8,670 nucleotides of DNA from a bacterium (lineage in GTDB: Bacteria; DYJV01; JALVYZ01), in contig JALVYZ010000302.1 in assembly GCA_027037705.1 (NCBI GenBank), positions 1 through 8,670 on the forward strand, written 5' to 3'. A program made the position numbers and the translations under genes. The stretch's first letter is position 1; each line of letters begins with the position of its first letter. A model generated the notes under the pieces. The model saw only the letters and a program-made list of their open reading frames with translations, made no database searches and was not told the DNA's origin. Positions 3,015 through 4,913 of the stretch are shown here, piece by piece.

Positions 3015-4304
3015 ATGAAATTTACAGTAAAGACTCTCGGCTGCAAAGTAAATCAATATGAATCTGAATTTATAATTAATTCATTAATTAAAAAAGGACT
3101 TCAATATGTTAATTTAGATGAATCACCAGATTTTATTATTATAAATTCCTGTACAGTCACAGATGAAGCTAAAAGACAGAGTTTTCAAATTTTAAGAAAA
3201 GCAAAGAGAATAAATCCTTTTTCTAAGATTATTTTGACAGGATGCGTTGTAGATGAAAATAACAAATTAATAGATGATATTATTTTAGTTTCAAATAGTT
3301 TTAAACCAAAAATCACAGAAATTATATTTAATTCTAAACCAGGCGATATATATATAAAAAATATTTTTAATGAAAAAAAATTTCATGAATTAGAGGTGAA
3401 AAACTTTTACAACACAACAAGGGCTTTTCTAAAAATTCAAGAAGGGTGTACAAATTTCTGTACATATTGCATAATTCCATATGTAAGAGGAAAACCAAGA
3501 AGTCTTGAAAAGAAAGAAGTGATAAATTCAATTTTAAAATTATCAAAAAATTATAATGAGATAGTTTTATGTGGTATAAATATTGAACTTTATGGGATAG
3601 ACTTTGGTGAAAAAAATGGATTTTACAATCTCTTATGTGAGATAGAAAATGAATTAGATAAAAAAAATATTAAAGATTTAAGAATAAGACTTACTTCATT
3701 AAAACCAGATAAAATAAATGAAAATTTAATAAAACTTATTATAAATAGTAAATATTTTTGCAATCACTTCCATCTTTCTATCCAAAATTTTAATGATGAA
3801 GTATTAAAATTAATGAATAGAAATTATGATTACAAAAAAATTGAAGAATGCGTAAATATAATAAAATCATATGATAATAATGCAAATATTGGAGCTGATA
3901 TTATTACAGGATTTATAAATGAGACAGAAGAGAAATTCTTAGATAATGTTGTGAAAATGGAAAAAATTGATATAAACTATTTTCATATTTTCCCATTTTC
4001 TTTAAAAAAGGGGACTAAAGCTGAGAATTTTAAGGAAATTATTGATAAAAAAGAAAAAAAAAGAAGAGTAAAAATTTTAAAAGATATTGCCAACAAAAAA
4101 AAAACAAATTTTTTAAAAAAAAATCTAAATACAATTCATAGAGTATTAATTGAAAAAAAAGAAAACAATTACTTTTCTGGATATTCAGACAATTATTTAA
4201 AAATTTATGTAAAAATTGATTTAAATCAATTGAAAAATAAATTTATTAATGTTATTGTTTATGAAGTATCCCAAGATGGATTAAAAGGAGGTGTTAGTTT
4301 ATGA
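3015..4304 (+). CDS. mtaB: tRNA (t6A37-C2)-methylthiotransferase MtaB
   Basis: This radical-SAM enzyme converts t6A to ms2t6A at position 37 of tRNAs reading ANN codons, which stabilises decoding. The 429 residues show the three-part MTTase architecture. The N-terminal UPF0004 domain has cysteines C10 (in TLGCKVNQYESE), C46 (NSCTVTD) and C77 (TGCVVD) for the auxiliary 4Fe-4S cluster. The radical-SAM core has CTNFCTYC (C145, C149, C152). The C-terminal region from about 365 is TRAM-like. The motif TLGCKVNQ starting at residue 7 separates MtaB from MiaB and RimO, and it fixes the ATG at 3015 as the start. No Shine-Dalgarno precedes it and a good promoter abuts it, so a leaderless message is likely. 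Its TGA stop overlaps the ATG of the next gene (ATGA), and its last codons carry that gene's ribosome binding site. Confidence 0.96.
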   Translation: MKFTVKTLGCKVNQYESEFIINSLIKKGLQYVNLDESPDFIIINSCTVTDEAKRQSFQILRKAKRINPFSKIILTGCVVDENNKLIDDIILVSNSFKPKITEIIFNSKPGDIYIKNIFNEKKFHELEVKNFYNTTRAFLKIQEGCTNFCTYCIIPYVRGKPRSLEKKEVINSILKLSKNYNEIVLCGINIELYGIDFGEKNGFYNLLCEIENELDKKNIKDLRIRLTSLKPDKINENLIKLIINSKYFCNHFHLSIQNFNDEVLKLMNRNYDYKKIEECVNIIKSYDNNANIGADIITGFINETEEKFLDNVVKMEKIDINYFHIFPFSLKKGTKAENFKEIIDKKEKKRRVKILKDIANKKKTNFLKKNLNTIHRVLIEKKENNYFSGYSDNYLKIYVKIDLNQLKNKFINVIVYEVSQDGLKGGVSL

Positions 4305-4501
4305 TTACAAAAGATATGCCTTTTTCAGAACTTTTACAAAAATATCCACAGGCTGTTGAAGTACTTATGAGTTATGGACTTGGATGAGTTGGATGTATTG
4401 CAGCTCAGTTTGAGACAATAGAACAAGGTGCTATGGCTCACGGTTTAGATCCAGATGAACTTGTAAAAGCTATGAATGAAAGAATACAATCCAAAAATTA
4501 A
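4301..4501 (+). CDS. DUF1858 redox-disulfide domain protein, predicted selenoprotein (UGA = Sec at codon 29)
   Basis: The ATG at 4301 overlaps the mtaB stop and follows a strong AAAGGAGGTG (4283-4292). Reading through one in-frame TGA (4385-4387) gives 66 residues ending at TAA 4499-4501. The first 28 residues (TKDMPFSELLQKYP, then EVLMSYGLG) and the 37 after the TGA (VGCIAAQFETIEQGAMAHGL, then ELVKAMNERI) together match the small helical DUF1858 / hybrid-cluster-protein-associated redox domain (TIGR03980 type) over its whole length. That family normally has G-L-x-C-x-G-C; here TGA replaces the first Cys and C32 is the second, giving U-x-x-C. No frameshift or other stop is present. A SECIS-like hairpin lies just downstream. 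The inferred role is a small cytoplasmic thiol/selenol redox protein; its partner is unknown. Alternatives are a recent nonsense mutation or a sequencing error. Family assignment is strong; the Sec reading is an inference that needs selABCD in the genome. Confidence 0.85.
4396..4420 (+). promoter_or_regulatory. SECIS-like hairpin downstream of the in-frame UGA
   Basis: The lower stem is TATTG (4396-4400) with CAATA (4416-4420). An asymmetric internal loop follows (CAG 4401-4403 against A 4415). The upper stem is CTCA (4404-4407) with TGAG (4411-4414), capped by loop GTT (4408-4410). Twenty bases separate the UGA from the loop. Bacterial SECIS elements bound by SelB typically have a small apical loop with G at its start, about 16-37 bases after the UGA, and this hairpin fits. 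The stems are short and I could not compute its stability. Confidence 0.65.
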
Positions 4502-4913
4502 AGGCACATACTTTATGTGCCTTTTCCTTCCTTCTCAGCAAAATATCGTTATTGGGAAATTAGGTAAAATAAATTTTAACAGAGGATATTATCTATATAT
4601 TGGAAAATCTTTTTCCAAAAGTGGAGTTTTCTCAAGAATTAAAAGACATTTATTAAAAGATACTTGTAAAAGATGGCATATCGATTATTTAAAAGAATAT
4701 ACAGAGTTCAAGTTTGTTGGAATTATAGAAAATATTGATTGTGAATGTTATTTGGCTAAAATTTTAAATGAAAAGTTTGTAAAAATTAAAAAATTTGGTT
4801 CATCAGACTGTAAATGTGATTCCCATCTTTTTTATAATAATAAATGGCAGGAATTTATTGAATATATAAAAAAAGCGGGGATAAAACCCCGCTTTTTATT
4901 TAACATCAATTGA
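4476..4913 (+). CDS. DUF123 / GIY-YIG-fold nuclease-like protein
   Basis: The 145-residue product matches the DUF123 family, which is related to GIY-YIG endonucleases. GYYLYIG carries the GIY-YIG core, followed by SRIKRHLL with the conserved arginine, then KRWHIDYL, then ECYLAKIL with the acidic residue, and FGSSDCKCDSHLF near the C-terminus. The cysteines in that last motif and in DCEC suggest a metal or structural role. The substrate is unknown for the family; a role in nucleic-acid cleavage is inferred from the fold. The ATG at 4476 is the first possible start, since TGA precedes it in frame. It lies inside the upstream selenoprotein gene, overlapping it by 26 bases, with no good Shine-Dalgarno. 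A later ATG at 4515 has AAAGG upstream but would remove the conserved KGTY start. Translational coupling to the preceding gene is likely. The 3' end carries a terminator and overlaps hsp20 by 18 bases. Confidence 0.85.
   Translation: MKEYNPKIKGTYFMCLFLPSQQNIVIGKLGKINFNRGYYLYIGKSFSKSGVFSRIKRHLLKDTCKRWHIDYLKEYTEFKFVGIIENIDCECYLAKILNEKFVKIKKFGSSDCKCDSHLFYNNKWQEFIEYIKKAGIKPRFLFNIN
4870..4897. terminator. Bidirectional rho-independent terminator between DUF123 and hsp20 genes
   Basis: GCGGGG (4875-4880) and CCCCGC (4887-4892) form a perfect 6-bp GC stem with a 6-base ATAAAA loop. It is flanked by a run of A before and T after, so a U-tract follows on both strands. It lies within the last codons of the DUF123 gene and just past the hsp20 stop, and can end both converging transcripts. 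It is by far the most GC-rich hairpin in this AT-rich window. Confidence 0.9.

Follow-up and report, generated by a model that had tools for sequence, protein, structure and literature searches.

A DUF1858 gene downstream of mtaB with an in-frame TGA, predicted to encode selenocysteine, at the first position of its C-x-x-C pair

Results

A DUF1858 gene containing one in-frame TGA

We analyzed a stretch of bacterial DNA of 8,670 nucleotides (referred to as 'the window') and found that the frame at 4301–4501 is very probably a real gene of the DUF1858/TIGR03980 family in which codon 29, a UGA, is read as selenocysteine (Sec), producing a U-x-x-C pair. A previous sequence-only reading had proposed a selenoprotein here. 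The proposal is supported because a second genome has TGA at the same codon, because the homologues have Cys in this column (93 of 97), because tRNA-Sec, a SelD gene that itself carries a TGA and a fragment of SelB are present, and because TGA acts as a stop elsewhere. The features discussed below are listed in Table 1.

Read with TGA as U, the frame gives MITKDMPFSELLQKYPQAVEVLMSYGLGUVGCIAAQFETIEQGAMAHGLDPDELVKAMNERIQSKN, followed by a stop codon, with residue 29 as its sole non-standard codon. When U was read as C, this product matched Pfam DUF1858 over model positions 1–59 of 59 (E 8e-23) and TIGR03980 over positions 1–58 of 58 (E 4.9e-29). Even in a six-frame profile search of the genome in which TGA was scored as a stop, the two matches still reached 75.2 and 89.1 bits, respectively, above the curated cut-offs. 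Of the paired C-x-x-C of these families, the first position is TGA (Sec for Cys) and the second is Cys in the window copy. An end-to-end family match with a single TGA at the first Cys had been reported from the sequence, together with a good ribosome binding site and an overlap with the mtaB stop, and each of these was found again. The ribosome binding site is strong, with 9 nt between its GGAGG and the ATG, and the ATG shares bases with the TGA stop of mtaB (ATGA, 4301–4304).

Table 1. Positions of features in and around the DUF1858 gene
Feature	Position	Strand	Basis or remark
mtaB-like radical SAM methylthiotransferase (UPF0004 + Radical_SAM), upstream neighbor	3015–4304	+	Pfam; TGA stop
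Ribosome binding site, AAGGAGGTG	~4285–4293	+	sequence
DUF1858/TIGR03980 gene, predicted selenoprotein, 66 aa, TGA as Sec29	4301–4501	+	translation, profiles, homologues
In-frame TGA (predicted Sec codon) in place of the first Cys of C-x-x-C (UVGC)	4385–4387	+	translation, alignment
Expected bacterial SECIS stretch	4388–4430	+	best G-loop hairpins −5.4 and −5.1 kcal/mol
11-bp hairpin followed by a short T-rich tail	4500–4524	+	−13.5 kcal/mol, z −6.6

Directly 3' of the DUF1858 stop codon lies a hairpin with a T-rich tail, which is consistent with mtaB and the DUF1858 gene forming a single transcript and possibly marks the end of that transcript; in a simple scan, the inverted repeat was assigned to the minus strand alone. 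The hairpin falls within the start of an open reading frame for a DUF123 (GIY-YIG-like) protein (4476–4913). The Pfam match of this frame starts at residue 32, and the real start of the DUF123 gene probably lies downstream of the listed one. A GC-rich, strong terminator-like hairpin that follows hsp20 on the minus strand (4870–4897) overlaps the end of the DUF123 gene.

The TGA is shared by a second genome of the phylum

Two genomes of the phylum were compared, that of the window (G000) and one from another family of the same order (G001). Since only these two sample the phylum, conservation of the TGA rests on two sequences. The DUF1858 protein of G001 is 60% identical to that of the window, and its TGA is at the identical codon (GLGULGC versus GLGUVGC). 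The gene order of the window is kept as well: in G001, too, the gene comes immediately after mtaB, with its start overlapping the mtaB stop as ATGA. The two MtaB proteins are 45% identical. Aligning homologues from related genomes had been suggested as a check, and it placed the TGA of G001 in the same column.

Among 97 distinct DUF1858 domains, column 29 is occupied by Cys in 93, TGA in 2, a gap in 1 and His in 1, the two TGAs being those of the window and G001 copies; at the second Cys position, 94 of the 97 have Cys. Sharing of a TGA codon at 60% identity, in a column with TGA in 2 of 97 domains and Cys in 93, argues that it is more than chance. Downstream of the TGA, the window and G001 copies differ at 10 first, 8 second and 17 third codon positions; 14 codons are identical, 8 synonymous and 13 non-synonymous, and the residue is kept in 22 of 35. 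This third-position bias and the kept residues indicate that coding constraint runs on beyond the TGA.

In a TIGR03980 survey of 386 genomes across bacteria, no internal TGA other than those of G000 and G001 was found among the matches listed, nor was there a further one among the matches listed in a PF08984 survey of 299 genomes from the phylum of a Spo0A-bearing genome. TGAs noted in two other genomes (G035 and G052) were rejected: they lie at the far C-terminal end, away from the Cys pair, and look like ordinary stops. Spo0A was sought among DUF1858 carriers, as a lead towards the group with the catalogued CxxU form (see below), and none was found. A scan of viral contigs for the motif with TGA yielded 52 matches at the DNA level, all of them outside DUF1858 genes.

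Selenocysteine machinery

The genome of the window has a tRNA-Sec (82.3 bits), which ARAGORN called as tRNA-SeC with anticodon tca. Its selD gene (G000:C202:1871-2800, L064) carries an in-frame TGA near the gene start, at the usual Sec site of SelD (HASGUAAKL), as does selD of G001 (G001:C91:10104-11024, L065; RAAGUAGKL). In both genomes the TGA-bearing selD provides an internal check on Sec decoding. SelB was matched over profile positions 187–580, its C-terminal two-thirds, with a score below the cut-off, as expected since this copy is truncated at a contig end. Downstream of the truncated selB (G000:C474:4402-5727, L018) are genes that we named by eye as a SIS-domain-like sugar isomerase and glutamate synthase-like subunits.

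No match to selA was found in the window's genome (496 contigs, 93% complete), either by profile or with the G001 protein, while selA is intact in G001. With this many contigs and this completeness, the missing gene is most simply put down to a gap in the assembly. The search for sel genes that had been advised as a check returned tRNA-Sec, SelD and part of SelB, and came up empty for selA.

A standard bacterial SECIS is unconvincing in the window copy

The published bSECIS rule calls for a loop of 3–9 nt with an early G, a spacing of 16–37 and a minimum free energy of at most −7.5 kcal/mol, and a subset of selenoprotein genes departs from this model (PMC13188914). The window copy misses the −7.5 threshold: its best hairpins are −5.4 kcal/mol (spacing 24) and −5.1 kcal/mol (spacing 20, loop GUU), and the former is no better than synonymous shuffles, of which 46% are as good. 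The G001 copy has a hairpin with loop UGGGA, spacing 37 and −10.1 kcal/mol, just within the rule, and an alternative with an 8-bp stem, loop GGG and spacing 38; the two forms are at about −10 to −11 kcal/mol. The corresponding hairpins of the selD genes are −9.6 kcal/mol in the window's genome and −7.7 kcal/mol in G001. When a stricter scan considered minimum-energy folds alone, neither DUF1858 copy stood out from its synonymous shuffles, and nor did G001 selD. An Rfam search of the stretch returned no RNA family beyond a chance-level match. Altogether, a standard bacterial SECIS is not convincing in the window copy and borderline in that of G001.

Predicted structure

An AlphaFold2 model of residues 1–66 (4301–4498), made from 16 sequences, consists of five helices (pLDDT 93); residue 29 immediately precedes helix 30–36. 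In thiol oxidoreductases, an attacking selenol and its resolving thiol are usually arranged in this way, as a U-x-x-C where a helix begins, and by analogy the same geometry may apply to the DUF1858 protein. The closest solved fold is 2K5E, a DUF1858 protein, followed by 2K53; both match by sequence too. Part of the iron-sulfur repair protein YtfE gave a weak fold match to the model (TMq 0.60–0.68, E at least 2.5), a resemblance that we take as a lead only.

Discussion

Alternative explanations for the TGA

A TGA is one base away from the Cys codons and the assembly is fragmented into 496 contigs, as might be expected if an ancestral Cys codon now reads TGA in a dead gene, or if the gene was misread in sequencing or assembly. 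However, G001, from another family and 60% identical in this protein, has TGA at the same codon within the same gene order, which largely refutes this explanation. Furthermore, neither the frame nor the family match is broken on either side of the TGA, constraint persists after it, and the ribosome binding site and coupled start are intact. We consider a pseudogene or sequence error highly unlikely. Nor do we give appreciable weight to a true stop, which would leave a 28-residue peptide and a downstream match that is a relic. The window copy is without a strong SECIS hairpin, as this would predict, but the 37 residues 3' of the TGA keep Cys32 and the ETIEQG and HG motifs in two diverged genomes; the probability of a true stop is minimal.

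For a full-length protein to be made the in-frame TGA must be read, and the residue inserted would be other than Sec if TGA coded for Trp, Gly or Cys in this genome, or if a near-cognate tRNA allowed readthrough. However, four genes of the window (ffh, mtaB, secG and the DUF123 gene) terminate in TGA, and its other conserved genes stay open with no need to read through a TGA. Since TGA ends ordinary genes here it is not globally reassigned, in agreement with what had been claimed from the sequence. The TGA residue is also at a redox Cys, and a tRNA-Sec with anticodon TCA is present. We regard reassignment or readthrough as exceedingly improbable and favor decoding of the UGA as Sec.

Relation to known selenoproteins

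Two reviews already catalogue DUF1858 (PF08984) as a predicted selenoprotein family with the motif CxxU, represented by WP_012065717.1 (PMC9312934, PMC13188914); the earlier sequence-only reading was not aware of it as an established selenoprotein family and is corrected on this point. The catalogued form and the window copy share the Pfam domain, and in each a single Sec is predicted to replace a redox Cys of the pair; comparing with the catalogue entry, however, the Sec is at the second Cys in the former (CxxU) and at the first in the latter (UxxC). The CxxU subfamily is characterized by Sec at the second Cys, and the window copy, with its Sec codon at the first, falls outside it. A 2026 review counts the same architecture with a different Sec position as a distinct subfamily (PMC13188914), and under this rule the UxxC form of DUF1858 would be a separate subfamily. 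That review names DUF1858 once, as CxxU. In a search of papers (rather than database entries) open without subscription, we found no other that ties DUF1858 or TIGR03980 to selenocysteine, and DUF1858 is absent from the main texts of two cited sources, PMC2398784 and PMC5029168. The family itself is thus already known, and the new part appears to be Sec at the first Cys.

The hybrid cluster protein-associated redox disulfide domain of TIGR03980 (2K5E, 2K53) has the same all-helical fold and C-x-x-C position and a full-length match, but its solved members and nearly all genomic ones have Cys where the window copy has a predicted Sec. Thioredoxin/glutaredoxin selenoproteins of the UxxC type have the same U-x-x-C arrangement, in which Sec occupies the attacking position, but their fold is unrelated to the five helices of DUF1858.

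Possible function

Sec decoding of the UGA, the redox chemistry and the coupling to mtaB are all three what we infer from these data. The DUF1858 product is probably a small redox protein of the selenol/thiol type. Attack on a disulfide or an oxidized substrate would come from Sec29, where the helix begins, and Cys32 would then resolve the selenenylsulfide. The protein would probably be made from the mtaB transcript, with translational coupling via the ATGA overlap. In the fetched flanks, MtaB was a neighbor in the window's genome and G001 only, and any functional pairing of the two proteins is a guess. The bolder proposal, that this is an unrecorded UxxC subfamily, fixed in the phylum, translated with mtaB and serving that iron-sulfur tRNA methylthiotransferase as a dedicated redox partner with a selenol, seems to us unlikely.

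The UxxC gene is of the type that standard gene callers split or drop, and it brings to light the use of Sec in a phylum of bacteria sampled by two genomes. A Sec form of a widespread, uncharacterized redox domain, with Sec at the expected attacking position, hints at which Cys reacts. Furthermore, use of Sec at either Cys depending on the lineage (UxxC versus CxxU) would argue that both Cys are redox-active.
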